Assembly: GCF_009914315.1 (NCBI RefSeq)
Contig: NZ_CP042596.1
Location: forward strand, 1,736,001 to 1,800,000
Reading direction: 5' to 3'
DNA from: Granulicella sp. WH15
Lineage (GTDB): Bacteria > Acidobacteriota > Terriglobia > Terriglobales > Acidobacteriaceae
DNA length: 64,000 bases
Below the pieces are notes generated by a model, which had not been told where the DNA came from, made no database searches, and was given only the letters and a program-made list of their open reading frames with translations. Made by a program: the position numbers and the translations under genes. This document shows, piece after piece, positions 3,137 through 21,950 of the stretch (its first letter is position 1; each line of letters opens with the position of its first letter).

Positions 3137-3154
3137 GGCTTAGAAGCCGTAGTT
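3137..3154. repeat. attL: left copy of 18-bp direct repeat
   Basis: GGCTTAGAAGCCGTAGTT, identical to 21624-21641. It starts one base after the xerC stop codon. The repeat contains the dyad GGCTT-AG-AAGCC, as expected for a crossover core recognised by a tyrosine recombinase. Confidence 0.85.
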
Positions 3155-6852: not shown

Positions 6853-7131
6853 ATGCAGGACACGCAGGAGATCATCCTCTCTGAGATACGCAGTCTCAGA
6901 GAGGACTTCAATCAGTACGCACGAGACACAGGAGAGAGGATCACGGCTCTCGAGGTACAAGTCAAGCACGGCATCACCGGCAATGGCCAGCCATCGCGAT
7001 TGCAGGTAGTTGAGACGGAGGTAGGCAGGCTGCGAGGTTGGCAAAGATGGACACTCGGAACAGCGGCAGGGGTAAGTACGCTTATCTCGGAACTCACCTG
7101 GGTGTTCGTTGAAGTCGTCAAGGGCGGGTAG
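6853..7131 (+). CDS. Small coiled-coil/one-TM protein, XhlA-like holin accessory
   Basis: 92 residues: an N-terminal helical segment with heptad-like pattern (MQDTQEIILSEIRSLREDFN, ERITALEVQV), a short linker, then VVETEVGRLRGWQRWTLGTA and a hydrophobic C-terminal helix (AAGVSTLISELTWVFVEVV). This layout, with one terminal membrane helix, is that of XhlA-type haemolysin/holin-associated phage proteins, which sit next to lysozyme genes. The lysozyme remnant indeed begins 3 nt after its stop. Family assignment is by architecture only. Confidence 0.5.
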   Translation: MQDTQEIILSEIRSLREDFNQYARDTGERITALEVQVKHGITGNGQPSRLQVVETEVGRLRGWQRWTLGTAAGVSTLISELTWVFVEVVKGG

Positions 7132-7134
7132 CGG

Positions 7135-7563
7135 TTGACGACGAGCGAAGCCGGCATCAAACTGATAGAGCAGTTCGAGGGCTTGAGACTATTCGCTTAT
7201 TGAGATATAGCGGGGATAATCTCAACCGGCTATGGGCACACTGGTAAAGACGTTCATCCGGGGATGACCATTACCAAGGCGGAAGCTGAGCAATTGTTGT
7301 GGCAGGATCTCAGGGCGGCTGAAAATGCTGTCTCTCGGCTTGTTACGCGCCAACTAACTCAGGCGCAGTTCGATGCTCCGGTGGACTTCACTTTTAATCT
7401 GGGGCAGGGCAATCTGGAATCTTCAGCCCTACTGAGAGACATTAACGCTGGTCAGATTGCAGATGCAGATGAACAGTTCCTCCACTGGGACCACGCTGGC
7501 AGTAAAGAGGTCGAAGGGCTGCTGGAGAGACGGACTGCTGAGGCAAGGCTATTCAAAATGTGA
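7135..7563 (+). pseudogene. Phage lysozyme (GH24, T4-type endolysin) with in-frame stop
   Basis: Reading from TTG at 7135 gives TTSEAGIKLIEQFEGLRLFAY, then a TGA at 7201-7203, then in the same frame DIAGIISTGYGHTGKDVHPG and MTITKAEAEQLLWQDL to a stop at 7561-7563. The E(F)EGLRLxAYxDxxGxxTxGYGHT signature of GH24 lysozymes spans the stop exactly. The catalytic Glu, Asp and Thr positions are all present, so one base substitution inactivates an otherwise full-length 142-codon endolysin. An internal ATG at 7264 would give a product without the catalytic Glu. Confidence 0.75.
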
Positions 7564-7726
7564 AATAAGCCAGCTCCCGTTCTGGGGTGATGTGTTACCC
7601 CTAACCCGCTGCGTGGCAGCGTGCTTTTGCTTTCTACTCTCCAGCCGCTGCTCCAAGCCAGAACAGCAGGGTTCCGATAGCATCCGCAGGAGCGTATCAG
7701 CGAAGCACACCAAATGCCTAATGCAG

Positions 7727-8278
7727 TCATACTTGAAGAGCGTTCGTTAGCACTATGTAATCCTTCCCATTAAATCGAAGTTCTGCTGTCGAGACCCGTC
7801 CCGCAATCATCATTACCGCTTGGATATTTCGATACCCGTTAGTCCGAGTTGGCTTGATAGACAGGTCATGAGCGGGTAACGTGAGTACTAGCTTTAGCCC
7901 CTGAGGTCTCTGTGCGAAGACCCAGAAGGTTGTCACATTCGCTCCTTGAAGCATCCCTTTGCCGATAACTACATAATCGTGTTCGTTCGGGCCGTCAAGA
8001 TGAACCTCAGATGCCGCGAACCAAGAAGTTGGAAGCTGGTCTGCTTGGAGATTTTGGCTGGCTAAAACCTCCATCACATTGTTGTCCTTCTTAAGGATTG
8101 AGCAAGCATCTTGAGGGATGCTGACGGGTTGCGTCACGCTTTCGTCTTCGGCACTAAATTGCACCTGTTCCGAAGGAATGGTCTTCTCTTGGCCCATTGC
8201 TCCTAATCCACAGAAGAGGCAGACCGCAACCAAGAAATGGATTGAAATTTTGGACATCATATTCTCTTTGATCCTCAT
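7727..8278 (-). CDS. Secreted protein, candidate immunity partner of the muramidase tip
   Basis: A 183-residue protein with a Sec signal peptide (MSKISIHFLVAVCLFCGLGA, cleavage near MGQ). The mature part is about 155 residues, soluble and without a recognised fold. Its first ATG overlaps the stop of the upstream Rhs tip gene by 4 nt (ATGA); an alternative start, MMSKISI, lies at 8260. Because the tip carries a lysozyme-like domain that would act on peptidoglycan, a periplasmic inhibitor encoded directly behind it is what a cognate immunity gene should look like. That role is inferred from position and export only. Confidence 0.65.
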   Translation of the reverse strand: MRIKENMMSKISIHFLVAVCLFCGLGAMGQEKTIPSEQVQFSAEDESVTQPVSIPQDACSILKKDNNVMEVLASQNLQADQLPTSWFAASEVHLDGPNEHDYVVIGKGMLQGANVTTFWVFAQRPQGLKLVLTLPAHDLSIKPTRTNGYRNIQAVMMIAGRVSTAELRFNGKDYIVLTNALQV

Positions 8279-9294
8279 TGACAGCTCGAAGAAACGATCG
8301 TCGAACCATAGGTCTGGATGGCGCTATTCATCGACTGGGTGAGTTGACCATAAGGTGAACCCGGAAGACTGGCCCGTTCACGTCCTCCATTTTGGATAGC
8401 CTGCTGGATGTGTCCATTCATTGCTGCAGTGACCATTCCTCGCTTGTCCATAAGCGTGTTTGCGGCGGCATCCTGCCCCGCTGGGGGAAAGTCGTTGAAG
8501 CCATAGCTTCTCGCGGTTCCGCTAAGAATTTGATAGCGGCCAAATGCAGTGCTGCGAAGGCCAGGACCAACTTGCACCAAGATGTTTGGGTGACCCGTCA
8601 GTGAACTCGGATCAGCAATTTGCGCATTCTTGGTTCCCGGAGATATACCGGTCGAGGCTGGTGCAGATATGACCGTACCTTTAACTACAGTCCCGTACCC
8701 ATTGTTTGGCTCTCCAGGCGTTTCTCCTGCTGCGACGACAACTCTCAACGCTTGCTGTACGCACGGCTTCGTAGGGGGATTCCAGTCGAATGTGGCGGCA
8801 CAACCGTCAGCACCGTGACAAGGATTTGATTGATCGGTCCAGTGTCCGCCTTGAGCATCGCAGTCGCCATGACTTGCTCCGCCATTGCTTGGATCGTCAT
8901 CCGATGGGTTGTTCAGAACGAAAGAGTAGAGGTTGAAGCTTTGCGGATTCGTCAAGTCTGCATATTCTGGGCCCGTAGGATCAGGACTCATCCAGCGGCC
9001 CATGTTCGAACTGTAGTAGCGATGGCCGAAGTAGTCGTTGCCTGATTCCTGGTCTCTTTCTTTGCCGGGATAACGAGATATGTCTAAAGCGTACAACGGT
9101 ACAAGACGTGGAATGCAGTCGTAGATGAAGGAGGTTTGCATCGTACGAACTGTCACTTTACTTTCGATGCGAAGCAGCGTGCTTTCGGGATGGTCATAGA
9201 CCGCTAGTATCAGCCGCGTGGATATTTCTCTACTCTCTTCCACGTACGACGGGTTCTCTGGTCTGTATCGGATTCCAATTATGGTCTCTCTCAA
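8275..9294 (-). CDS. Orphan Rhs tip with lambda R-like muramidase domain (GH104-like)
   Basis: 339-codon ORF. Residues about 75-130 are the end of an Rhs core (SRYPGKERDQESGNDYFGHR, SSNMGRWMSPDPTG, NLYSFVLNNP). After a linker, residues about 180-330 follow lambda endolysin R closely: GETPGEPNNGYGTVV (R: SEGT..NHGYDVIV), GHPNILVQVGPGLRSTAFGR (R: DHPRKLV..LKSTGAGRYQ), DFPPAGQDAA (R: DFSPKSQDAV), ASLPGSPYGQ (R: ASLPGAGYGQ). Glu191 is the likely catalytic acid. The first 74 codons overlap the preceding gene and are probably not translated natively. There is no signal peptide, so it likely works only after recombination onto the full-length Rhs gene. Followed at once by a secreted immunity candidate. 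Confidence 0.78.
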   Translation of the reverse strand: MRETIIGIRYRPENPSYVEESREISTRLILAVYDHPESTLLRIESKVTVRTMQTSFIYDCIPRLVPLYALDISRYPGKERDQESGNDYFGHRYYSSNMGRWMSPDPTGPEYADLTNPQSFNLYSFVLNNPSDDDPSNGGASHGDCDAQGGHWTDQSNPCHGADGCAATFDWNPPTKPCVQQALRVVVAAGETPGEPNNGYGTVVKGTVISAPASTGISPGTKNAQIADPSSLTGHPNILVQVGPGLRSTAFGRYQILSGTARSYGFNDFPPAGQDAAANTLMDKRGMVTAAMNGHIQQAIQNGGRERASLPGSPYGQLTQSMNSAIQTYGSTIVSSSCQ

Positions 9295-9508
9295 TTAGGG
9301 AGATCCCTAGTAGGAAGATCACGATGCAAATTGCTATGAGCAGTCTCTTCGCTTTCAGGTTTACTTGAACTTCTGTTGTCCTATCCTCTTCCGTCACGAC
9401 ACCGTCCAGATTTGAGAAGTCCGAGCGGTAGAACTTTTTGCGAGTTGCGATTCCGCATGCCCCAAGAGCACCACCGATCATTAAGATCCATCCGGATGAA
9501 ATATTCAT
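9230..9508 (-). CDS. Small two-TM protein, candidate immunity for tip 5
   Basis: 92 residues with an N-terminal hydrophobic segment (ISSGWILMIGGALGACGIAT), a charged middle (KKFYRSDFSNLDGVVTEEDR) and a second hydrophobic helix (RLLIAICIVIFLLGISLI). It starts 9 nt after the stop of the frameshifted tip gene at 9518. Position, size and membrane nature match the other small proteins that follow each Rhs tip here. No homologue is recognised. Confidence 0.5.
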   Translation of the reverse strand: MNISSGWILMIGGALGACGIATRKKFYRSDFSNLDGVVTEEDRTTEVQVNLKAKRLLIAICIVIFLLGISLIERDHNWNPIQTREPVVRGRE

Positions 9509-9517
9509 ATACCTCCT

Positions 9518-10398
9518 TTAGCGGCATGTCGCATCGCCGAGATAACCCAAACTGGTAGACACGCCATCACTGAAAGGACCGTTCTTTCCATCACCCTTTT
9601 GGAAATTTGTTGAAACCCCAACTGTCGGATGAGAACTTCCAAGTCCATACGAAACTCTGAAAGGCGTGTCGGGTATTGGAACGCTCACTTGTGCTCCAGG
9701 CTTAGTTCCGCTTGTGGTCGCGTCAAAAGCGATGTTTCCCCCGTCGACACCGCGCGTGCTGGTCGAAATATGAAAGCCGTGACGGTCAAGACTCAGGCCG
9801 CCTCTATCTGGGTTGTAGGTATTTGGTATCTCGCGTTGATACTCACATTGCAGACCCAAGGTGTGCTATGCGTATTCTGAGCAACACCCTGAACGAGCGC
9901 ATTTACGTTCGCGTCGTCAAGTTGTTGGGCGGTCGGATCAAGATATCTGCCAGATATAAGCGTCCCTAAACCATCGTCCGTCGTCCCGCTATATCCTGTC
10001 ACTCGACCGCTGCTGTCCCCTGTTGTGGTGGATATGGTGTTGACGGTTCCATCCACATATTGCCCGCTGTTCGCTTTCTCCTCCGTCGAATTATCGCAGT
10101 CTCCCCTTTCAAAACCTTCGTACGCCCCCGTGTCAACGTTCGTGTGGATGCAATCCATTCCAGTAGGGTCGATGTTGATCAAGGGGTTGTTCCGCCCGTA
10201 GCTGTACAAATTGAAGCTCTGTGGATTCGTCGGATTAGCATAATAGAGCCCTGACGGATCGGGGCTGGAAAACCGGCCCATATTGGAGCCGTAGTACCTG
10301 GCCCCGAAGTAGTCCAGTCCTGATTCTGTGTCTCTTTCTTTGCCGGTGAAACGGGATTGCAGAGAACGCACTACAGTTGCACAAATGCCAGAGACCAT
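9518..10398 (-). pseudogene. Orphan Rhs tip 5, glycine-rich type, frameshifted
   Basis: From 10398 the frame gives an Rhs core end (SRFTGKERDTESGLDYFGAR, DPSGL, NLYSYGRNNPLINIDPTGM) and a linker to HSTPWVCNVSINAR, then a premature stop at 9793. A second frame, open from 9859 to 9518, carries protein-like sequence (DGGNIAFDATTSGTKPGAQV, TPFRVSYGLGSSHPTVGVST). The VC of the first frame aligns with the VCG.GA.AYGG element of two other tips, so a one-base indel near 9840 probably separates the halves. Start of the core fragment has no obvious RBS. Confidence 0.55.
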
Positions 10399-10490
10399 CG
10401 TAAATCTGGACCGCCGTCGTAGTTGTAGTTCTGAGTCTCACGGTCGGACCCACGGCCAGTCGACCGAGAGCCAGCCAGCATCTCAACTAG

Positions 10491-10718
10491 CTAATGAAAA
10501 AGTGCGGCGAGACCTGAGTAAATGAATACTGCACAAATCGCGCTGATAGCAACTGCAATCCAAATGCTCACGGGTTTCCCTGATTCGCGCCTAAAATAAC
10601 CGATCCACGTGAGCGCCAGCACGGCGAAGCCCACCAGTAAATCGAACGATGGGTCACTGTGCCCACCATGAGCCGCTTCCGCCACCGGTCCAAAAATAAT
10701 CATTTCTTCTCCATGCAA
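10491..10718 (-). CDS. Small two-TM protein, candidate immunity for tip 4
   Basis: 75 residues with two hydrophobic helices (FDLLVGFAVLALTWIGYF and VSIWIAVAISAICAVFIYSG) separated by RRESGKP. The gene overlaps the end of the upstream tip gene by 19 nt, so translation is probably coupled. It resembles the 73-residue protein behind the full-length Rhs gene in size and topology, and the two tips concerned are of the same type. Confidence 0.6.
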   Translation of the reverse strand: MHGEEMIIFGPVAEAAHGGHSDPSFDLLVGFAVLALTWIGYFRRESGKPVSIWIAVAISAICAVFIYSGLAALFH

Positions 10719-11599
10719 TTAGCATTGTTTGTGATGTTTACATAAAGACCTGCTCCCACTTCTCGTCCACCAGCGGAAACCTCGCCATAAACCCCGGCTC
10801 CGTTCGTGAATCCGACGAGCCCTGCTCCAACGTGAGCACCAGGAACTTCAACACCGGGACCACCATAGATAAAGTTTGAAGAACCCAACCCCTTCCCATC
10901 ACTTGATACGATCAAACCGCCCCCGCCAACAACCCCTTCGCCACTGCCGCCTTCGAATAAGGCTCCCTTACTCACCTCATCTCGTGTGTCTGCCTCGACG
11001 ATTCCTCCGGCAAATCCATTTGCGGGTCCGGCATCGACCGACCTGCCACCATATGCAAAAGCTCCTGCTCCGCAAACGGTTGGGGCGGCGAGTGCAATCG
11101 CCTTTATGTACTGATCGGGAGTCGGCGGCGTTAAGTTGGGATAGCGGGGCGCTTGGTTCTTGACGTACTGCACTAAAGCAGCGTTATCCGTTTCACCCTG
11201 AACTTCATTCGCCAGATTTCTTGAGCCGTCAGCGGTTACAACATTGATATTCTTGTTGTTTTGATATGCGGCATCAGCTTTATCAACAACATCACATCCC
11301 TTTCCATCGTTGTCGTCGTAGACCGTCCCATCTGATGAGTTTGTCTGGCATGTCTTACCAGTCGGGTCGGTGTAGATTAGCGGGTTGTTCAAGACGTAGC
11401 TGTACAGATTGAGACTCTGAGGATTGCGCATATCGGCGTACAGCAATCCCGACGGATCGGGCGACATGAACCTTCCCATCGAACTCGCCATATAGCGAGC
11501 GCCGAAGTTATCTAAGCCGCTCTCGGCGTCCCGTTCTTTGCCGGTAAAACGTGATTGCGAAAAACACACTGTGGCGGCACAAACGATGGAGCGCGTCAT
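10700..11599 (-). CDS. Orphan Rhs tip 4, glycine-rich toxin type
   Basis: 299 codons: short leader, Rhs core end (SRFTGKERDAESGLDNFGAR, SSMGRFMSPDPSGL, NLYSYVLNNPLIYTDPTG), then a linker TCQTNSSDGTVYDDNDGKGC that is almost identical to that of the full-length Rhs protein. The C-terminal 150 residues contain PTVCGAGAFAYGG and a long glycine-rich stretch with alternating hydrophobic residues (GVYGEVSAGGREVGAGLYVN), suggesting beta hairpins. I recognise no catalytic motif. It lacks a signal peptide and is followed by a two-TM immunity candidate. Together with the full-length protein's tip and tip 5 it forms one unrecognised tip family. Confidence 0.6.
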   Translation of the reverse strand: MTRSIVCAATVCFSQSRFTGKERDAESGLDNFGARYMASSMGRFMSPDPSGLLYADMRNPQSLNLYSYVLNNPLIYTDPTGKTCQTNSSDGTVYDDNDGKGCDVVDKADAAYQNNKNINVVTADGSRNLANEVQGETDNAALVQYVKNQAPRYPNLTPPTPDQYIKAIALAAPTVCGAGAFAYGGRSVDAGPANGFAGGIVEADTRDEVSKGALFEGGSGEGVVGGGGLIVSSDGKGLGSSNFIYGGPGVEVPGAHVGAGLVGFTNGAGVYGEVSAGGREVGAGLYVNITNNANCMEKK

Positions 11600-11669
11600 A
11601 AGTGTGTGGACCTCTATCGTAGGTGGAGCCCGAGTCTCAGAATCGAGATTTGGGCTCTCGGTGGGTTGC

Positions 11670-12119
11670 TCAGTTGCTCTGCTTCGTTAAGTTGTAGTGC
11701 ATTCCTCCGGAAGGTGCGGCAGCGTCTTCGATTCCGCTTTGTAGCTCGACTTCAATCTGCTGGCGACCCACGTTGACCGTCTTGGAGACGTTCTGAACTG
11801 CTTTTGCCCGGAAATACTGAACTCGAAGAACATGGTCATCCGCCCAACTCAGGTTTACCCCATAGGCTTGTTCGTTTCTTAATGCCCCGTACAGATTGGC
11901 TACCGGATTTAGCGTCTTAGCCCCATCGATTTCGATGCTCACCACATATCCGAACGACGTAGTTGCTCCGCCATTCGTCTCGGTCAGTACCGCGTCTAAG
12001 CTGCCGTTTGGCGACTTGACGCGTGCTACTTCATAGCTTGACGGTTGCTTTTTGCAGCCGATCACCAGCGCCATTAGCACGAGAATTCCGGCTGCCAAAC
12101 TTCTCGAGATCTGCTTCAT
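11670..12119 (-). CDS. Lipoprotein, candidate immunity for tip 3
   Basis: 149 residues beginning MKQISRSLAAGILVLMALVI-GC, a classical lipobox with Cys22, so the protein should be lipid-anchored in the envelope. The mature part (VKSPNGSLDAVLTETNGGAT, ADDHVLRVQYFRAKAVQNV) looks like a small beta-sandwich; no family is recognised. It starts 44 nt after the stop of the Bacterial toxin 44-like tip. Its role as immunity protein is inferred from position. Confidence 0.55.
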   Translation of the reverse strand: MKQISRSLAAGILVLMALVIGCKKQPSSYEVARVKSPNGSLDAVLTETNGGATTSFGYVVSIEIDGAKTLNPVANLYGALRNEQAYGVNLSWADDHVLRVQYFRAKAVQNVSKTVNVGRQQIEVELQSGIEDAAAPSGGMHYNLTKQSN

Positions 12120-12163
12120 GAATCACCCCTTCCTTTTCAACCGCACTTGTTCGGGACTGGGCA

Positions 12164-13067
12164 TCATCCTGTGCAGCCCATCTGTGCGTACTTAATTCCC
12201 AAATTTATGAAATTCTGATCGTTCGGATCGTCCCCGTAAGGCGCAGTTCCACCGCCAGGGTTCAGGAAGATGCCGGGCAAGCTGCCAGGATCACCGCCGA
12301 ATTGTGGTGATCCTGCGTGCCCTCTTTGTGCCCGACCCGCCGCTCTACGGAGTGTGAAGGGGGGGAGCACCGGCCGCTGTGCCTGTAGCACCGTAGTTGA
12401 AGTTACCGAAGTTCTCGTACTGTGCTCCTCCGGTTTTGTAGTCCCACACACCGCCGTAGTTCACCATATCCCTAAACCACAGCTGATTGAACGGAGGCGG
12501 CTGGAGAAGATACGAAAGCCTTGCAATCTGCATATTCTCATTCACACTGACTCCTGAAGGCGCTGTAGGAACAGATGGGCAGCCGGTTGTATGAGAGCTC
12601 TGGGTACTTTGATTTTGGACGTTTCCCGTGTTGCCGGTGAACACCGAGGTCGTGTCGGTGTCGCCGGTCTCTGCGTTGACATTCACGGTGGTACTTGCGT
12701 CGGGTACCCACTCGCCTTTATTTCCGTTCTCGTCCGCTGCAGTACACTCACCTGAACTCGAATGAAAGTCGTACTGCGATGCGTCGTTGGAGTCTGCGTC
12801 AGTGCTTCCGTAGTAGCAATACAATCCCGTTGGGTCGGTATTCTTGAGCGGGTTGTTTAGAGCGTAGGAGTATAGATTCAGGCTCTGCGGATTGCTCTGA
12901 TCAGCGTAAGCAAGCCCTGATGGATCAGGCGAGGAGAACCTACCCATGTTGGAGCTGTAATACCTGGCCCCGAAGTAATCGAGTCCTGATTCTGCGTCTC
13001 TTTCTTTGCCGGTATAACGTGATGACGAAAAACTCGGTTTGGACGCACAGGTGGAGTCGGGCGTCAT
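12164..13067 (-). pseudogene. Orphan Rhs tip 3, Bacterial toxin 44-like, broken at a C7 run
   Basis: From 13067: Rhs core end (SRYTGKERDAESGLDYFGAR, SSNMGRFSSPDPSGL, NLYSYALNNPLKNTDPTGL), a linker, then ENMQIARLSYLL and YENFGNFNYGATGTAAGAPP, then a stop at 12345 just after a run of seven C (minus strand; G7 at 12359-12365). With six C the frame continues as FTLRRAAGRAQRGHAGSPQF and ends APYGDDPNDQNFINLGIKYA. The joined sequence (GNFNYGATG...AAGRAQ...YGDDPxDQxxIxxGIxYA) is the pattern I know from Bacterial toxin 44. The break is either a real mutation, a phase-variable tract or a sequencing error. Confidence 0.62.
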
Positions 13068-13095
13068 AGAGGCATCCCCCGTCGTCGTAGGTTTA

Positions 13096-13806
13096 CTACG
13101 GCGCTGCTGGACCCGCGTGACCCGAACGGTAAGCCTCGGGAAGATCGTCCCAGAAAAACGCTACATAGCTGTAAGGTTGCCGCAAGGCAACGTGGGGGTC
13201 TATTGCAAATCTAAATGGAACCTCCATATGCCACGATTTCCCCACATGATTTGCAGGCACACTGAAAAGCACTTCTGCGCCAGGAGGAACTATTTTGAGA
13301 ACAGGAGAAGACGGAGCATTCAGGTCTATGTAGCCGCGTGGTAATATAAAATCTCGCCCGTGGTCTGTGGTCTTTGAAAGAGCCTCTCCGCCTTTGATCT
13401 CGGCTTCATGATTATTTGGCATCAGGAATATATCTGTGAAGTTCTCCTCTCCATGCTGATAACCAATCATCGAGCCTACTGACTCAGCCCCAATCGGTAG
13501 AGCGTTTGGAACGACCTCATCGCCAACCCAAGATGCTTGGTCTGTCTTCTGCGTGTCCAGCGCTGACCCGATCACAACGATTGGAATCTTGCAGTTGTTT
13601 CTCAACCTAAACCAGATGCCAGATTCAACTTCTCCATCGCGAAGAGGCTTTCGTGGCCCGACATGGTCAATTGCAAGATAAACGTACGGCTTTGAATTAT
13701 CTATGGTGAATGTGCTGCTCCCGCTTGGGGACGACTGCTGACAAATGGCCGATGCCACATAGAAAGCGACTAGAAAAAGACAGAGGCTGAAACGGCTCTT
13801 CTTCAT
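13096..13806 (-). CDS. Secreted protein, candidate immunity for the metallopeptidase tip
   Basis: 236 residues with a Sec signal peptide (MKKSRFSLCLFLVAFYVASA, then ICQQ). The mature protein is beta-rich, with no recognised domain (VYLAIDHVGPRKPLRDGEVE, SGIWFRLRNNCKIPIVVIGS). The ATG overlaps the stop of the upstream HExxH tip gene by 4 nt, the same coupling seen at two other tip/immunity junctions here. Export fits inhibition of an enzyme acting in the periplasm. Function is inferred from context. Confidence 0.6.
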   Translation of the reverse strand: MKKSRFSLCLFLVAFYVASAICQQSSPSGSSTFTIDNSKPYVYLAIDHVGPRKPLRDGEVESGIWFRLRNNCKIPIVVIGSALDTQKTDQASWVGDEVVPNALPIGAESVGSMIGYQHGEENFTDIFLMPNNHEAEIKGGEALSKTTDHGRDFILPRGYIDLNAPSSPVLKIVPPGAEVLFSVPANHVGKSWHMEVPFRFAIDPHVALRQPYSYVAFFWDDLPEAYRSGHAGPAAP

Positions 13807-14660
13807 GGCTGTATAGCTGCTCCTTTTCCTGCTGTGAACGCCGGTTTGGAGTCTCTATTGCCGTTCTCAGTCTTGATAAGAATTTGAAATTCAGGCAGCT
13901 TGAAAGAGTCGCCCTTTTTCCAATCGACCCGAACGTTCCCGTACTGCATATTTGCACTGAAGGTTCCGTTCGGTCCGTAGAGGTTGTTTCCAATCCCATT
14001 CATTACGTTGAACTGGACCTGGTACGCACGAAGCTCCGTAGCGTTGCTGGTAGGATTCATGCTCGCTGAAAATCCGGAGCTAACCCAAGCAGAAGCATCC
14101 CCGACATGCGACCCTTCGTGTGCTGCAAGTCCACCACTCCAATCGGTGTTTATCGCATCTGGTTTGAACGTGACATTTATGTTCTGACCAGTTGGATTGT
14201 CAGCACTCTTATTTCCGTTCGCAGTTCCGCTAACCTCGGTCACGCCACCTGGCTCTGAAATATTGGCATCGAAGCGAACATTTACGCCATTGTCAACGCC
14301 CTGTGCGCCGTATGCATCAATTGCCCGTTGAGCGGAATCTCTATCCGCTCCTGCCGCCATACCATTCACTGCGTTTTGCGCAGCGCCCAGAGCCTTGGCA
14401 AAGTTTTGATCATTTTGAGAACTGCACTCTGTGCTGTCCTCGCAAACATACATTCCGGTGGGATCAGTGAGTCGCAATGGGTTGTTTAATCCGTAGCTGT
14501 ACATATTCCACGTTTGTGGATTAGTACGATCAACACCAATGTTGCCCGGATCCGGTGACAGCATTCTGCCCATTGACGATGCGTAGTACCTAGCCCCGAA
14601 GTAGTCGTTTCCTGATTCTGTATCTCTTTCTTTGCCGGTATAACGGGATAGATAGAGACG
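13803..14660 (-). CDS. Orphan Rhs tip 2 with HExxH metallopeptidase-like domain
   Basis: The frame is open from 14660, just after a TAG at 14661-14663, to the stop at 13803. It begins in Rhs core sequence (RYTGKERDTESGNDYFGARY) and has no ATG, GTG or TTG before the ATG at 14573, so it is a 5'-truncated tip rather than an independent gene. After NMYSYGLNNPLRLTDPTGM comes a helical linker and then GGLAAHEGSHVGDASAWV with the zinc motif HEGSH (H152, E153, H156 counted from 14573), followed by NATELRAYQVQF, whose Glu180 could be the third zinc ligand. This is the usual HExxH...ExxAY plan of toxin-type zincins. A secreted immunity candidate overlaps its stop. Confidence 0.65.
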   Translation of the reverse strand, partial: RLYLSRYTGKERDTESGNDYFGARYYASSMGRMLSPDPGNIGVDRTNPQTWNMYSYGLNNPLRLTDPTGMYVCEDSTECSSQNDQNFAKALGAAQNAVNGMAAGADRDSAQRAIDAYGAQGVDNGVNVRFDANISEPGGVTEVSGTANGNKSADNPTGQNINVTFKPDAINTDWSGGLAAHEGSHVGDASAWVSSGFSASMNPTSNATELRAYQVQFNVMNGIGNNLYGPNGTFSANMQYGNVRVDWKKGDSFKLPEFQILIKTENGNRDSKPAFTAGKGAAIQP

Positions 14661-14667
14661 CTATGGA

Positions 14668-14889
14668 TTAGGATCGCCATAACTTCCATAAAGCGAAAAG
14701 CAACATTCCGGCTCCGACGCATATGAAAAAGATACGTTGGAACCATGCGGGCCAAGCAATCAAAGGATTCTCACTCCGATCATCGTCTTTTAATGATCGG
14801 TTCCGAGATGTGAGGGCCCCCTGCACAAGCACCACAACACCCACCGCCGCTATGACGTAGTACCGAACGTGATTCAATTCAATCGTCAT
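14668..14889 (-). CDS. Small two-TM protein, candidate immunity of the full-length Rhs protein
   Basis: 73 residues with two hydrophobic helices (YYVIAAVGVVVLVQGAL and WFQRIFFICVGAGMLLFALW) around a charged loop (TSRNRSLKDDDRSENP). It starts 4 nt before the end of the full-length Rhs gene (ATGA overlap). Size and topology match the 75-residue protein behind tip 4, whose toxin domain is of the same type. No database family is recognised. Confidence 0.6.
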   Translation of the reverse strand: MTIELNHVRYYVIAAVGVVVLVQGALTSRNRSLKDDDRSENPLIAWPAWFQRIFFICVGAGMLLFALWKLWRS

Positions 14890-17800
14890 TTGCCAGGCCC
14901 ACAGGTTGAATCTCCCAGGGAACCGATGTTTGCGTAGACGGCCAAGTTGTGCGGTGCAGAACTTCCAGGCACACTCCCGACCAAGCTCACTGATTGTATA
15001 GCGTTTGGATCTCCATTTTGGGTGCCAACCTCGACTCCCAGCGCGCCGCCAAGAGCATAGGCTTGATAAGACACATTGCCGGCAGCTCCTCCTGATATGG
15101 TGTAGTTTGCTTTTACACCGAAGCCACCTGGGCCCGGAATATTTGCTATATTTGCTCCGCTGGCGAACTGCACACCGCCTTGAGTATCTGCCGACAGTCC
15201 GGCGGCGACACGATCACCGCCATAAGCAGCAGCACCAACGCCACAAACATTTGGCAAGGAACTCGTATTTTTAGCGACATTTCGAATGAGTTGCATCGAC
15301 TGTGACGAGATTGGTGGTCCCTTGTAATAACGAGGAGCTTGGAGTTGTAAGTAGCGGACAAGACTCTGATTAATTCCCGCATTCGTCGTATCCGTAGCGA
15401 GATCGCGCTGGCCGTTGGCATTTACCGTGGCACTTGGTGCCGCAGCCGCATCTGCCTTATCGACAACGTCGCATCCATTCCCATCCAGGTCATCATAGAC
15501 AGTTCCGTCAGACGAATTGGTCTGGCAAGTAAGTCCCGTGGGATCCGTATTGCTTAGGGGATTATTCAAGACATACGTATATAGGTTCAGACTTTGCGGA
15601 TTTGAAATATCGGCGTACAGAAGTCCCGACGGATCAGGGCTGGAAAACCTGCCCATGTTGGAGCTGTAGTACCTAGCCCCGAAGTAGTCCAGCCCGGATT
15701 CTGCATCCCTTTCTTTGCCGGTGAACTTGTAATGGTTTGTGCTTGTTCCTGCGGGAATCTCTTGCCCGAAGGGCATGTATTGGCTCGACATGAGAAGAGC
15801 GCCATTGCCATCGGTCAGAGCCTCGGTCGAGCCGAGCCGCCCAAAATGATAGAAGGTTGTGCTGCTCTGAGGATTTGTGGGTGCCATCGCCGTATCGGAT
15901 CGGGCGATTCGTTGCCCATTGGCAAAGATGTAATCACTCCAACTCCCATCTCCATTCCTCTCCGCCAACTCCAGACCGTTGAAGTTGATGTATTCCGTCG
16001 AACTCCCGTTAGATCCCCGCTTGCTGATTCGGTTGCCGCCAGCATCGTAGAGGTAGGTTTCAAATGCTGTGGCAGTGCTGGATACGGCGATTTGTAAAAT
16101 CCTTCCCTCCGCATCCCATGTATATTTTCGGAAACCTCCGGTTGGGTTGGTGTCGCAGAGTTGGTTGCCAGAGGCGTCGTACGGAGTAAAGGCGCTTGCG
16201 CATGGGAGGTTCGCGATACGATTGGTCGCTGCATCGAATGTGGAGAGCGGCGAGTTCCCGCTCATCATGCTCATGTTGCCAAACGAATCGGTTTGATATT
16301 GCTGCGACCATCCGAGTCCCGAGGCACTGGTAATGCGATTGACTGTGTCGTAGCTGAACGTCTGTAGGTTGGCACTGTTCACGATGTCTTTGATCTGTAG
16401 TACGTTTCCATTGTTACCGCTTGTGATCTGATCGCAAGGAGGGGAGATGGAGTCGATCGGAGAGGTCGCCATGCCAAAACAATAAAGCTTTTCATCGTAG
16501 CGAGCATTGTTAGAAAGTTGCAGATGGCTCGTCTCGTCAATCTGCAAACGATCATTGATATGATATCCGCTTGCCATTTGGTTCCCATAGAATAACGCCC
16601 GAAGGCTTCCATTCGGCCAATAAGCAGTCGAGGATATGTACGGGTATCCTATGGACTGTCCATTCCAACTGGCATAAGTAACCGACTGAAGCTGATTCGC
16701 GCCGTTCCAGCCCTGCGTGACGACACGTCCATCTGGGTATGTCAGGGACGTCATATTTCCGGCAAGATCGTAGGCCGCAGAAACCTCATAGACAGCTCCC
16801 GTCGTCGGATTGCTCGGCGTACTGGTCAAGGTCTCAATCGTCCGTCCCATCGAATCATAGCTATAGACCGTCATACTCTGGCAGGCTCCAGGAATGTTCA
16901 CGCAGATTACACTCAGCCTTCCTTTGACGTTGCTAGTTGTAAACTTCTGTGTCGGACTAAAACTGATGTTGTTGGTGTCGTACACGTACAAGGCTGTCGG
17001 GGTTACGCCGTCAGAGTAGGTTCTGCTGGTGAGACGATTCAGAGTATCGTAACCGTAGCTGGTCGTGATGCCGCGAGCGTCGGTCCTGCTCATTACATTG
17101 CCGTTGGCATCGTATGTATAGCCGATCTTACCTGTCTCAGGATTGGTCGCCGAAGTCAGCCGCGAAAGTGAATCGTAGATAAATGTGCGGGAACGTCTCG
17201 TCTCACTCCCAATACCAATTTGAGTGGCGGTCGTAAGGTTTCCCAAAGCATCGAAGACATAGCCGGTAGAAGCGCCGTTAGGCTCCGTGACATTGCCGAT
17301 ACGCCCTAACGCGTCATATGCCCGCGACCAAGTGTGCCCCGCTTCATCCGTAGATAAAACGTTGTTGCCGCTATAAAACCATTTGAATGTTGTCCCGTCC
17401 GGCTGCGACCGAAGGGTGGTCCGGCCCAAGGCATCGTAGGTGTAGGTTGCGGTCCCATCTGATGGGGACGACGAGGTGAAATGTGGGTTAGAAACGGTGG
17501 AGACATGACCAAGGCCATCATAGGTCGTATCGAGAGTAGCTCCGCTTGGATCCGTCTGATGGATCGTTCGGCCCAGGCCGTCATACACCGTACTGCTATG
17601 AAGAATGCCATCCCCTTTTGTATTTTTGTCCTGAGTGACGGTAACCTGTGTCGGGCTTGGGTATTGATAGCTGGTCCAACTTTCCTGAGCTGTGTTCACA
17701 GCACTCCGGACCTGAGTGACTCGACCCAGTGGGTCATTATGCGCGTAGCTGGTCACGACGCCATTTTCATCGGTCTGGGACGTTATTGCTCCGGTATTCG

Positions 17801-19667
17801 CATCGAACGTATAGCCCACGGCATGCTGGACACCACTGGTTGTGGGATATTGAATCCCGCTCAAAAATGCTCCAGGGCCATCGTAAGAGTAAGCTGTAGT
17901 ATTTCCCTTGGGATCGATAGCCTGGATTGGCATCCCTTGACTGTTGTATCGAGCATGGGATGTTGTCTGCGTCGGGCTGAGTCCATTGTTAACAGTAGTC
18001 GCATGTCCATATACCCCAGGAGTTGAGAGGTATTGAGATTCGTCGTAGGTGTAATCCGTCTCTGCCACCTGAGCTCCTGTTCCGTTCAGAGTCTTAACGG
18101 TCGCGGGAATCGTAAGGAGATTGGCGGCAAAGTAGCTCGGATTGCTTGCCCACTGAAATGTCGTATTGGTCGTGCGCAATACTGGCCCAGGCGCTCCCGA
18201 ACCATAGTCCGTCTCCGTTACAGCCCAGGGCTTTGATGTATAGCCAGATGGTTGCGTTCCGAGGTCGACCTGACCATTGGAAAACGCAGCGACGCCGAAA
18301 CTGAAACTCTTGCCCATGTCCCGATCATAGGTATAAGACACTTTGGACTGCTGTCCATTCGGCCAGATGGTTGTAATACTGGTTGGGAGGACATCATAGG
18401 GAGCAAGAATGGTCGAAGGCGTTCCATTCGCATTTGGCCATGTGACATACGAATAGGTGTTGGACACTGTTTTAATGAGATTTCCGCCGTTGTCGAACTG
18501 CTGGGTCTCGGTCTCATACGGAAAACATGGTCCTCCGCTGAACGTATGAATTGTTTTATTACCCAGTGGGTCTATGACAGTTCCAGAACTGATATCGTAT
18601 TGCCACGTTTGTGGTCCTTTGCCGTCGTTTGCATCGACTGCTCGAGCAGTGACGATGGGATGAGCGAGGCCCGAATCCGAACAGCCAGCTCCGCCGACGG
18701 AATAGGTATAGGAGATACTCCCTCCAGAGGGTAGTATCACTTTGCTTAGCGCGGATAGGGTGCTCGCCTGGGTCTGCCCCACAAGAAGCGGGAGAGATAG
18801 AGTTTGGTACTGGAATGTGAAACTTGTCTGATCCGGGAGGGTGATGGACGTGATTTGCACCGTATTGGTGCCGATCGTATATGTCGCGCTTGCGCCGTTT
18901 GGCCCTGGGACCGTCCATGTACTCGAAACAGGGACAGTAGCGAATGAACTGGGGTTAGGAGGAGCTGGAATCTGTCTCCCCAGGGTGTCTGTCACGCCGT
19001 TTGTGCCTATGTTGATTTGATTTCCGTTCGGATCAGTTGCCGTACATGGAAGTGCCCCGTTACCCTGGTAAGGACAGTAGTAGGTGACTCCTGCGCTGTC
19101 TACTACAGTCGTGCTACTGTCCGATCCGAAAATTCCTGAGTACCCGGAGCCGTCCAGGGCACGGAGGGACGTAGCGTTGATGTATCCCATCTGATGTGAA
19201 GAACCATCTCCTTCATAGACGGCCCCATTGGAGTAGCAGGCACCTGGTGTGGCACAGTTCCCGTTGTTCGTCAGGCTAAACACCAGTCGAGCAATGGTGT
19301 TAGAGACAATCGTCGGTCCGGATGCTAAGAGGCCCTCCCAGAGATTGGTGCAAGGGCCATGAGGGCCACAATTCAACGACACCTCATTGGCTACCGGCGT
19401 ATTATATACAACCGAATAATCCGCATGAAGTCTTCCGCCTCTTTGAGGAAAGGAAACCAGCGGGATATGCAGGGTCAGCTCACCCGTCGCCAGATTCACC
19501 GAATCGATATCGCCCCCGTGGTATGACTCGAAGGGCACAGTTCCAGACTGTAGCGCAGGCTCATAAGCGGGGGATTGCGCGTTCGCGCAAAGACTGAGAA
19601 CGATAAAGGATATTGAGGCGCTCGAACGCAGGAAACCAAAGCAAAACAAGCCAATGCGTGAAATCAT
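14886..19667 (-). CDS. Full-length secreted Rhs/YD-repeat protein with variable toxin tip
   Basis: A polymorphic-toxin-type Rhs protein of about 1590 residues. The frame is open to 19772, but the ATG at 19667 gives a plausible signal peptide (ISRIGLFCFGF...ASISFIVLSLCANAQ), so I prefer it; neither start has a good RBS. The N-terminal part (GDIDSVNLATGELTLHIPLV) resembles secreted Rhs proteins. Many YD repeats follow (YTYDALGRTTLRSQPDGTTF, FDALGNLTTAT, YDANGNVMSRTDARG), then the core end FTGKERDAESGLDYFGARYY, SPDPSGLLYADISNPQSLNL and NPLSNTDPTGL, which contains the conserved aspartates of the self-cleavage site. The last 210 residues are a glycine-rich tip with PNVCGVGAAAYGG. The shell would encapsulate and release the tip. 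Confidence 0.85.
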   Translation of the reverse strand: MISRIGLFCFGFLRSSASISFIVLSLCANAQSPAYEPALQSGTVPFESYHGGDIDSVNLATGELTLHIPLVSFPQRGGRLHADYSVVYNTPVANEVSLNCGPHGPCTNLWEGLLASGPTIVSNTIARLVFSLTNNGNCATPGACYSNGAVYEGDGSSHQMGYINATSLRALDGSGYSGIFGSDSSTTVVDSAGVTYYCPYQGNGALPCTATDPNGNQINIGTNGVTDTLGRQIPAPPNPSSFATVPVSSTWTVPGPNGASATYTIGTNTVQITSITLPDQTSFTFQYQTLSLPLLVGQTQASTLSALSKVILPSGGSISYTYSVGGAGCSDSGLAHPIVTARAVDANDGKGPQTWQYDISSGTVIDPLGNKTIHTFSGGPCFPYETETQQFDNGGNLIKTVSNTYSYVTWPNANGTPSTILAPYDVLPTSITTIWPNGQQSKVSYTYDRDMGKSFSFGVAAFSNGQVDLGTQPSGYTSKPWAVTETDYGSGAPGPVLRTTNTTFQWASNPSYFAANLLTIPATVKTLNGTGAQVAETDYTYDESQYLSTPGVYGHATTVNNGLSPTQTTSHARYNSQGMPIQAIDPKGNTTAYSYDGPGAFLSGIQYPTTSGVQHAVGYTFDANTGAITSQTDENGVVTSYAHNDPLGRVTQVRSAVNTAQESWTSYQYPSPTQVTVTQDKNTKGDGILHSSTVYDGLGRTIHQTDPSGATLDTTYDGLGHVSTVSNPHFTSSSPSDGTATYTYDALGRTTLRSQPDGTTFKWFYSGNNVLSTDEAGHTWSRAYDALGRIGNVTEPNGASTGYVFDALGNLTTATQIGIGSETRRSRTFIYDSLSRLTSATNPETGKIGYTYDANGNVMSRTDARGITTSYGYDTLNRLTSRTYSDGVTPTALYVYDTNNISFSPTQKFTTSNVKGRLSVICVNIPGACQSMTVYSYDSMGRTIETLTSTPSNPTTGAVYEVSAAYDLAGNMTSLTYPDGRVVTQGWNGANQLQSVTYASWNGQSIGYPYISSTAYWPNGSLRALFYGNQMASGYHINDRLQIDETSHLQLSNNARYDEKLYCFGMATSPIDSISPPCDQITSGNNGNVLQIKDIVNSANLQTFSYDTVNRITSASGLGWSQQYQTDSFGNMSMMSGNSPLSTFDAATNRIANLPCASAFTPYDASGNQLCDTNPTGGFRKYTWDAEGRILQIAVSSTATAFETYLYDAGGNRISKRGSNGSSTEYINFNGLELAERNGDGSWSDYIFANGQRIARSDTAMAPTNPQSSTTFYHFGRLGSTEALTDGNGALLMSSQYMPFGQEIPAGTSTNHYKFTGKERDAESGLDYFGARYYSSNMGRFSSPDPSGLLYADISNPQSLNLYTYVLNNPLSNTDPTGLTCQTNSSDGTVYDDLDGNGCDVVDKADAAAAPSATVNANGQRDLATDTTNAGINQSLVRYLQLQAPRYYKGPPISSQSMQLIRNVAKNTSSLPNVCGVGAAAYGGDRVAAGLSADTQGGVQFASGANIANIPGPGGFGVKANYTISGGAAGNVSYQAYALGGALGVEVGTQNGDPNAIQSVSLVGSVPGSSAPHNLAVYANIGSLGDSTCGPGK

Positions 19668-19772
19668 ACGAGAAGCTATCCAGCCTTCCAAGTGAAAATG
19701 AGGAGCGGTCTCAGCTTTGACTAAAAGGGACAAAGAAGGCATAAGGCTGCACAAAATTCTCCGCCTGTTCAT

Positions 19773-20179: not shown

Positions 20180-21486
20180 TCATGCGGCAGCCCCCACAGA
20201 AGGAACGAAACCCTGAAACGTGCTGTTTATGGTCGTCCGGATCGTCGCGTCGTCGGCGTCTGCGATGTACTTGATCGTGGTCTCAAGGCCGCTGTGCCTG
20301 AGGTATCGCTGCAAGGTCTGGGCGGGGAGCCCATTATGATGAAGCATCGTAGCAAAGGTCTTCCGCAGTTTATGCAGGACGAACTGTTTACAGACCGGAT
20401 GGAACGCGCATGACCTGCCCTTCTTGTTTATGCAATGCCCATAGTTTGCCCCGGCATGAAGAGCGAGTCTCTTAAGGGTGATGAGCAGACGCCCATTCGG
20501 CTTGCCATGTTTACCGGGGAAGATTAGGCGAGTCCGTGGATAGCGGGCACGACGGGCTTTGAGCACCTCAACCAGGAGATCAGAGATGGGGAGTGATCCC
20601 TCCTCCTTATCTTTGGGGCGGTAACCAAGGTCGAGGTGCTCAGTAATCGTGTAGGTTTTGCGTCGAGATCGACATCCGGCCAGCAAGCATACTTGCCCTC
20701 CTGTTCCCGCGTACCGGTGCAAAGAAAGAAGTGCAACAGGTCGGACTTGTCCTGTGTCGCGTGTGCAAACAGCTTGCCAACTGGTCGCCACTATAGGCCC
20801 GGACTTTTTCTCCGTATAGCGGGGGAGGTCCTTCCCCACGAGGATGGGCTTGAGACCCTGGTGCTGGAAGAAGATTTGAAGGTGGTCAACCCGGTTACGG
20901 ATAGTCCTGGGAGCATTTCCGATGGACCTAAGGAACGCAACGAACTCAAGGAGGTCTTGACGCGTGATCCTGTCGAGTGGTCGATTCTCATAGATCCGTT
21001 TGAGTTTTTCCCCCTTGCCTGTCTCATCCGCAAGGGGAAAAAACAGATGAACTGCTCGACGGTACGCCACAAAGGTGCCCTTGGAACGATGCTCCTCCAT
21101 CTCTGCCAGATATTCTTTGACGGCGTCCGAGAGGAGCTTGCTCGATGGGTGGTTGGGGTCTCCTTTGGTGTTGGATCAGGAGAGGGATCTTTCCCTTGGG
21201 GAGGAGTCTCGGGGGCGAGGTCCAAGCTTCCCTGAAGTTCGAGGATTTTATTGCGGAGCTTGGCCAGGGCGAGGGAGGCATCTGGGCCGACGGGATGCCA
21301 GATCCGCCTACCGTCCTCCTCTCGGTACCGGAGACAGTAGGTAGCCCCGGCGAACTCCATCGCCCGGCCCTTGTAAATGGCATGATTCTGCTTTAGCCGC
21401 CCGTTCGCGGAGAACGCGGCTTTGAGATATGGATGTGATCCATCGGCGAGACGGACCCTAAGATAGAGCTGAACCGGTGTTCTCAA
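20180..21486 (-). pseudogene. Tyrosine integrase of the island, multiply frameshifted
   Basis: Three frames carry pieces of one phage-type integrase. From 21486: RTPVQLYLRVRLADGSHPYL, an Arm-type N-terminal domain, to about 21110. Then a second frame from 21100 with GTFVAYRRAVHLFF, LEFVAFLRSIGNAPRTIRNR, interrupted near 20800-20675 where another frame supplies LHFFLCTGTREQEGKYACWP (first catalytic Arg). The final part has HKLRKTFATMLHHNG, RYLRHSGLETTIKYI with His, Arg, His and the nucleophile Tyr. At least two indels are needed to restore a protein of about 430 residues. It lies 137 bp inside the right attachment repeat, the normal place for the island's own integrase. Confidence 0.72.
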
Positions 21487-21623: not shown

Positions 21624-21641
21624 GGCTTAGAAGCCGTAGTT
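21624..21641. repeat. attR: right copy of 18-bp direct repeat
   Basis: GGCTTAGAAGCCGTAGTT, identical to 3137-3154. On the minus strand it encodes the last four residues and stop (Asn-Tyr-Gly-Phe-stop) of the gene starting at 21854, so integration at this site leaves that gene intact. Confidence 0.85.
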
Positions 21642-21854
21642 CTTCTTGCGCAGGGCGTTCTTGTAGAGGTCGCGGGCTTTTTTGGCGGCCAGCTCGGTAT
21701 CGTGGACTACGAGACCGGCGGTGTCCCAGTTCTCCATGGCGACCATAGAGTGATCGTCGTTGGCGAGCGCTTCTTCAGCGCGGATGGCGTCGACCCAGGC
21801 ATCAATGGCTTGCTTGTAGTCCTTCAGGAGTTGGTTGAAGTCAATGTTTTCCAT
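21627..21854 (-). CDS. Small conserved-looking helical protein; island target gene
   Basis: 75 residues from the ATG at 21854 (a longer frame to 21890 exists but its first 12 residues look non-coding): MENIDFNQLLKDYKQAIDAW, then VDAIRAEEALANDDHSMVAM and AAKKARDLYKNALRKKNYGF. It is acidic and helical, with no membrane segment; function is unknown. The last codons lie inside the 18-bp attachment repeat. The left end of the island carries a second copy of just these last codons, which is what insertion at the 3' end of this gene would produce. Confidence 0.7.
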   Translation of the reverse strand: MENIDFNQLLKDYKQAIDAWVDAIRAEEALANDDHSMVAMENWDTAGLVVHDTELAAKKARDLYKNALRKKNYGF

Positions 21855-21950
21855 GTGAGTGACGTTAGGGTGGCGGAACGGGCAAGTCAATTGGGGCGGG
21901 AATGGATTGACAGAAAATTGATTGAGGCTATCCCGCCTGAGTGTGGCGAG

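Follow-up and report, generated by a model that had tools for sequence, protein, structure and literature searches.

A full-length Rhs gene with five orphan tip/immunity cassettes on a degenerate integrative element of Granulicella sp. WH15

What could be the role of five orphan toxin tips, each followed by a small gene, behind a single full-length Rhs gene? The question is raised by the 64,000-nucleotide stretch of DNA analyzed here (the window), which comes from Granulicella sp. WH15, a complete genome of one contig (4.67 Mb). The locus combines RHS repeats, the core domain, the junction sequence and a variable tip with an adjacent small gene, and in these features it belongs to the Rhs polymorphic toxins, among which orphan arrays are already a known kind. 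The array described in an earlier note on this DNA, one full-length gene and five orphan tip/immunity cassettes, all on the minus strand, is indeed present (Table 1; cassettes O1–O5 with tips T1–T5 and immunity candidates I1–I5; T0 and I0 belong to the full-length gene). In the reading that we consider probable, this is an Rhs locus on a degenerate element, with a toxin that would be exported by Sec and slowly gathered cassettes, the job of a cassette being mainly to provide its immunity protein.

The full-length gene, the core ends and the element

The orphans are located downstream of the main gene, lack the N-terminal delivery part and share with it the core end (TGKERD...DPTG), the six copies of which begin at 15725, 14642, 13016, 11548, 10350 and 9072 of the minus strand. 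A genome search with the alignment of the six copies retrieved exactly these six at E <= 0.001 (E 2.9e-41 to 1.6e-36), and the full-length gene is the sole carrier of the RHS repeat family found in the genome. The Rhs_assc_core family matched the full-length protein and all four orphan open reading frames scanned (O1 below the cut-off; O4 was outside the scan). Compared with a reference copy, nucleotide identity is 63-77% for five copies over 208 nt and 68-84% for six copies over 102 nt. The full-length junction, NPLSNTDPTGL, fits the PxxxxDPxGL pattern, where DPxGL is the expected self-cleavage site. This site is complete in O2, reads DPTG followed by M or K in O1, O3 and O4, and is absent in O5, which lacks 17 residues that include it and that are retained in its nearest relative, P0001. 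Elsewhere, the array of locus L180 (G226 C332), in which a T1/I1 pair is found, is larger than that of the window, with seven core ends of the orphan type on the same strand.

The full-length protein has RHS cage relatives among solved structures, and its N-terminus is a probable Sec signal. By a crude hydropathy rule, the start at 19667 (M36) is likelier than that at 19772 because the hydrophobic signal is then close to the N-terminus. The lack of an N-terminus of the type VI secretion system (T6SS), as previously noted, is borne out: only RHS families matched the protein at E <= 0.1 in Pfam, with no PAAR/T6SS-type N-terminus recognized, and a search for VipB (PF05943), the one sheath family tested, gave no match in the genome, with the Escherichia coli control matching. 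This genome, with no detected T6SS sheath gene, packs all the Rhs core ends found in it on one delimited integrative element.

Judging from its sequence features, this element is a degenerate, integrative prophage remnant. It is bounded by an 18-bp direct repeat that has just two copies in the genome, both exact, with up to two mismatches allowed (the pattern read backwards, used as a control, gave one match at the same tolerance), and spans 18.5 kb with a GC content of 0.53, compared with 0.65 in the left flank and 0.58 in the right flank. A frameshift divides the integrase gene next to the right repeat, and the endolysin gene on the left has an internal stop, in agreement with the decayed prophage island of the earlier note; no capsid or tail family matched among the few other element proteins scanned. 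The insertion separates genes that are neighbors elsewhere. In the genus comparison set (62 genomes, one per species), xerC was located in 57 genomes and ntrC in 52, and in 36 of the 48 other genomes with both, the two are 0.5-9.1 kb apart on one contig, compared with 20.3 kb here; among the remaining pairs, 8 are far apart on one contig and 4 are on different contigs. No single-copy empty site with the 18-bp repeat was detected in 12 xerC loci from relatives at up to 4 mismatches, and the small gene of the right end is found elsewhere in all 19 other genomes that have it. The element also encodes a 769-aa protein (4517-6826, plus strand) with a signal-like N-terminus and no match in Pfam, NCBIfam, PHROG or PADLOC, and a 92-aa protein (6853-7131, plus strand) with no family match, which we presume to resemble small phage lysis-module proteins.

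Tips, immunity candidates and exchange between genomes

Each immunity candidate follows a tip, so that the uninterrupted tandem immunity genes of a polyimmunity locus are not observed. All six immunity reading frames are open, and by the crude hydropathy rule all six candidates contain a signal-, lipoprotein- or membrane-like segment. At four of the six tip/immunity junctions (full-length gene, O1, O3 and O5), the two genes overlap by the 4 nt ATGA; the other two are gapped, by 44 nt (O2) and 9 nt (O4). The count of four overlapping junctions had been given correctly before; the accompanying range of 4-19 nt had not, all four overlaps being 4-nt ATGA with I3 starting at the internal ATG at 10703, and the figure of 19 nt arose because an upstream TTG start of I3 had been taken. 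Similarly, the six tips are diverged as claimed but not all different: the first parts of T0 and T3 are 50% identical over a 127-column alignment. The small immunity proteins I0 and I3 show no similarity to each other.

The HEGSH motif of T1 is of the HExxH type, which we take to be peptidase-like. T2 matches Ntox44 with E 0.0021, which is below the curated cut-off. T5 is similar to the phrog_90 endolysin (E 6.3e-19), and its model (predicted local distance difference test, pLDDT, 83) matches PDB 3d3d (E 1.1e-7). The beta-barrel-rich, moderate-confidence model of T3 gave no clear structural match, and T4 has no homologue in the loci compared, no further search having been made.

The tip comparison included 81 loci (80 fetched and the window; nine further matched regions were left out). 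Genes were called full-length-type if they have RHS-like repeats upstream in frame or the usual core sequence immediately upstream; this class includes some genes that are broken or truncated at the end of a contig. The 117 tips of at least 60 residues fall into 87 clusters, 16 of them multi-member, and 5 of the 16 mix orphan and full-length-type forms (clusters were joined at 50% coverage, with some links through the linker part only). As an orphan, T1 occurs here and in G226 (63%, with I1 at 47%); it is the tip of core-bearing frames in G028, G058, G294 and G110, those of G294 and G110 being long Rhs frames, and in G263 a full-length gene is followed downstream by a T1-like stretch that contains a stop. 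In G092, a long Rhs frame has T5 as its tip and is accompanied by a relative of I5 (43% and 34%, respectively). The G092 case strengthens the argument for exchange, and the G263 case weakens it. Other T5 relatives, P0005 (65%) and P0020, bear RHS repeats, whereas P0024 and P0025 join the T5 linker to a different lysozyme domain, which shows that the tips themselves are modular, with exchange inside the tip. Two T3 relatives, P0028 (58% across the entire query) and P0039, have the core-associated domain PF25023 in a precomputed list; a fresh Pfam scan of the two yielded nothing at E <= 0.1, but the core end, or a variant of it, is recognizable in both. Halves of T2 were found in 2 of the 299 other genomes searched, the linker half on a long Rhs frame (G246) and the toxin half in G167. 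Core-bearing Rhs proteins elsewhere thus carry relatives of T1, T3 and T5 and, separately, the halves of T2, as anticipated for tips in both contexts, and genome comparison indicates that tip exchange has happened over evolutionary time.

Ready tip switching inside this array, by contrast, appears doubtful. The orphan core ends are 46-72% identical to the full-length copy (ungapped, 208 nt); exact matches of the latter to O1, O2, O3, O4 and O5 extend over at most 24, 17, 14, 17 and 13 nt, respectively, and ungapped stretches with at least 90% identity over at most 26, 45, 32, 76 and 21 nt. A long near-identical repeat of the Salmonella type is not found: in Salmonella Typhimurium, for which tip switching has been published, the main and orphan core ends share 522 bp at 95% according to the available part of the source (PMC3967940). 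The earlier view of the array as a ready store for tip switching is not supported in that form, given the identical runs of at most 24 nt, the two frameshifted tips and the one start-less cassette. At the same time, the core ends within arrays carry traces of a shared history. Of 44 array members compared with a set of 92 core ends, 15 have their nearest relative within their own array (shuffles: mean 1.1, maximum 7 in 1000), and the array labels on the core-end tree require 44 changes (shuffle mean 57.2, minimum 53 in 100 shuffles), so that core ends of one array are unusually alike and local copying or exchange must have taken place in the past. In locus L044 (G041 C46), array core ends are 92% and 97% identical at the nucleotide level, which makes that locus more suitable than the present one for a search for recent recombination.

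The leader and the translation of the cassettes

Approximately 90 nt directly preceding the core end are common to O5 and many orphan cassettes of other genomes, from at least eight genera of the family. This leader seems to be a new trait in an otherwise known kind of locus; among the titles and abstract openings retrieved from an open-licence library, none describes a shared leader. At E <= 1e-3, it was identified in 13 of 40 genus orphans with an intact core start and in 0 of 63 full-length-type genes (Fisher p 1.1e-6). With twelve family loci added, the counts are 17/49 and 0/72; these loci were partly picked by their leaders, which makes the genus figure the fairer one, and the rows are related. 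In the window, only O5 passes this threshold, with O2 and O3 alike by eye in the alignment and O4 at E 0.75 or 0.04. A model made from 17 leaders has matches in 16 of 250 family genomes and 8 of 79 genera (E <= 0.001), under stricter filters and with some of the model's own sequences among the matches. Most leaders in the family loci examined run straight into the core end, the exceptions being a lone leader in G081 and degenerate core ends in G040 and G200; in the genus set, some leaders are joined directly to the tip or left as remnants. A leader joined to a tip-like frame without a core end is present in L050 (minus strand, 5764-5702) and, weakly (E 0.043), in L082 (minus strand, 4157-4102). 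A second and different, HQGFGFVIS-like leader precedes orphan core ends in three species (L040, L051 and L099), two of which have a relative of the Xer-type recombinases of the window close by.

The leader shows little codon periodicity and has no predicted conserved fold. It contains two similar CTACGA-type boxes and often provides the core with an in-frame start codon: in some cassettes, box 1 has an ATG at a distance of 69 or 57 nt from the core, whereas in others there is no ATG in box 1 and the sequence of box 2 is TATGA, mostly at a distance of 51 nt. On the core-end tree, leader presence is scattered at random (16 changes compared with 16.3 in shuffles). An ATG in frame with the core end and open into it occurs within 120 nt in 26 of the 40 genus orphans, compared with 4 and 11 in the other two frames and with a mean of 9.2 and a maximum of 17 in 500 single-base shuffles. 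Such an ATG is present in four of the five orphans here, O1 being without it, so that the Salmonella-type description of orphans as usually lacking translation initiation signals does not seem to apply.

These features can be accommodated in the scheme that we favor as probable. The full-length protein would be exported via Sec, with T0 carried in the Rhs cage, and would act on the envelope of neighboring cells. Cassettes would have been gathered one by one, over long times, by recombination at core ends and tip linkers. Translation of a cassette would begin upstream of the core end where an in-frame start exists, the ATGA overlaps may couple translation of the immunity gene to it, and the present job of the cassette would be mainly to make its immunity protein. 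The tips produced in this way would stay in the cytoplasm, harmless if envelope-acting, and fusion of a tip to the full-length gene by recombination at core ends would be a rare event.

Several observations weigh against this scheme. Across the genus, a signal or membrane segment is present in the immunity candidates behind 50 of 76 full-length-type tips but behind only 18 of 37 orphan tips (candidates were picked automatically, and the O2 and O4 picks of the window were wrong and counted as segment-less), so that envelope targeting is no rule for orphans. Two of the five tips, T2 and T4, are frameshifted, such that translational coupling cannot work simply there, and O1 has no start. Overall, 14 of the 40 genus orphans lack the in-frame ATG; among them are O1 and two cassettes of G032 whose leaders score high (in one, ATA replaces ATG, and the other is out of frame), hence the start rule is not general. 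Furthermore, orphans with a leader share common descent, and the start-codon counts therefore cannot be treated as independent. Most of the Shine-Dalgarno-like sites preceding the start ATGs are weak, and neither promoter-like matches (8, compared with 11.0 in shuffles) nor terminator-like matches (16, compared with 12.3, sd 4.6) are clearly above the shuffles. The frameshifts of T2 and T4 and the O1 start look like decay, implying that some cassettes are no longer kept in a state usable as a tip.

Alternatively, the orphans could be a silent reservoir, i.e., untranslated donors for switching the full-length tip by homologous recombination as in Salmonella. The architecture matches the system described in the available part of PMC3967940, tips are found in orphans of some genomes and full-length proteins of others, both the nearest-neighbor and the tree-label shuffles show an excess similarity of core ends within arrays, and O1 retains its core end without a start codon. 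Nevertheless, we consider such a reservoir unlikely given the short exact matches and the 76-nt limit on stretches of high identity between full-length and orphan copies, the two broken tips, and the in-frame starts of four of the five cassettes, for which a silent donor has no need. It is somewhat less likely still that the cassettes are accumulated debris, displaced 3' ends and failed insertions, mostly functionless, whose persistence would be due to a young age of the array or to the cost of losing immunity. Breaks or losses affect T2 and T4, the O1 start, the DPxGL site of O5, the integrase and the endolysin; remnants lie behind array or gene ends in G046 (a truncated leader and core) and G057 (a leader); and the orphans without an in-frame ATG fit as well. 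Against debris stand the six open immunity frames out of six and the genus-wide excess of in-frame starts.

The leader itself could be a site-specific recombination site at which cassettes are inserted, as in integrons. In several genera its end coincides precisely with the upstream border of the core end, its random scatter on the core-end tree looks as if leader and core end recombine, and the paired boxes would be compatible with such a site. We find this highly improbable, however, since no conserved fold is predicted, the sole integrase recognized on the element is broken and located at the island edge, and relatives of the window recombinases are present in only 7 other compared loci (other recombinase families were not looked for). 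In a further, tentative reading, for which we would claim only a modest chance, the leader could be a dedicated exchangeable cassette element that gives a captured core end and tip a translation start of their own. Orphan arrays of this bacterial family would then be expressed immunity banks, in which envelope-acting tips are harmless toxin fragments, the leader/core junction would be a recombination seam, and the second ATG would replace the first after a frame-shifting indel. With its alternative in-frame starts, the leader makes the choice between a silent store, an expressed antidote bank and debris addressable by simple reporters.

Table 1. Coordinates of the locus features within the window
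Feature	Position	Strand	Remarks
Left 18-bp direct repeat (attL-like)	3137..3154		directly after xerC stop codon; two exact genome copies
Phage endolysin remnant	7132..7563	+	in-frame stop; family match
Weak leader-like remnant, array end	7704..7743	-	E 0.17; E 0.0095 in smaller search space
Immunity candidate I5	7727..8278	-	signal-peptide-like N-terminus; ATGA overlap with T5
Orphan tip T5	8275..8886	-	lambda-lysozyme-like fold
Core end O5	8887..9072	-	DPxGL region missing; O5 frame 8275-9294
Conserved orphan leader of O5	9073..9150	-	start ATG 9141
Immunity candidate I4	9230..9508	-	two hydrophobic segments
Orphan tip T4	9518..10158	-	two frames (frameshift)
O4 start ATG 10398 and core end 10350-10159	10159..10398	-	leader match weak, E 0.04-0.75
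Immunity candidate I3	10491..10703	-	two hydrophobic segments; ATGA overlap with T3
Orphan tip T3	10700..11356	-	C-terminal part predicted beta-barrel-like, moderate confidence
O3 start ATG 11599 and core end 11548-11357	11357..11599	-	upstream part leader-like by eye only
Immunity candidate I2	11670..12119	-	lipoprotein-like N-terminus
Orphan tip T2	12164..12824	-	two frames; Ntox44-like; frameshift at run of 7 C
O2 start ATG 13067 and core end 13016-12825	12825..13067	-	upstream part leader-like by eye only
Immunity candidate I1	13096..13806	-	signal-peptide-like N-terminus; ATGA overlap with T1
Orphan tip T1	13803..14453	-	HEGSH motif
Core end O1	14454..14642	-	no start codon upstream; stop 6 codons before core end
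Immunity candidate I0	14668..14889	-	two hydrophobic segments; ATGA overlap with T0
Tip T0	14886..15533	-	full-length gene
Core end of full-length gene	15534..15725	-	core-end search
Full-length Rhs protein, 1593 aa from M36	14886..19667	-	RHS repeats, Rhs_assc_core, probable Sec signal; alternative start 19772
Tyrosine integrase, two frames	20180..21486	-	20180-21100 has PF00589/phrog_1; 20791-21486 overlapping upstream frame, no family match
Right 18-bp direct repeat (attR-like)	21624..21641		3' end of small gene 21627-21890

Comparison with known systems

One of the closest published parallels in architecture is that of Salmonella, where, as here, a full-length rhs gene is followed by an orphan core fragment and tip with its own immunity gene, and the junction is PxxxxDPxGL. 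In S. Typhimurium LT2, the parts of the sources available describe one orphan that is T6SS-linked and read from internal promoters with a CTG start (PMC3967940; PMC7043789), whereas the array of Granulicella sp. WH15 has five orphans of low identity, no VipB found in the genome, and ATG before four of five core ends. In bee-gut bacteria, Rhs C-terminal displacement arrays have been reported in which many tips are known only as orphans; those arrays are T6SS effectors, with no shared leader described in the part of the source available (PMC8125069), in contrast to the present array on its integrative element.

RHS toxins exported via Sec (the signal-peptide class of the type II secretion system) and accompanied by cassette arrays are a recognized class, and the available part of the same source lists Ntox44 and defines a polyimmunity locus as tandem immunity genes never interrupted by toxin cassettes (PMC3482391). 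The locus described here resembles this class, as far as the source describes it, in the Sec-type N-terminus, the RHS repeats, and the arrays of toxin cassettes with adjacent immunity genes.

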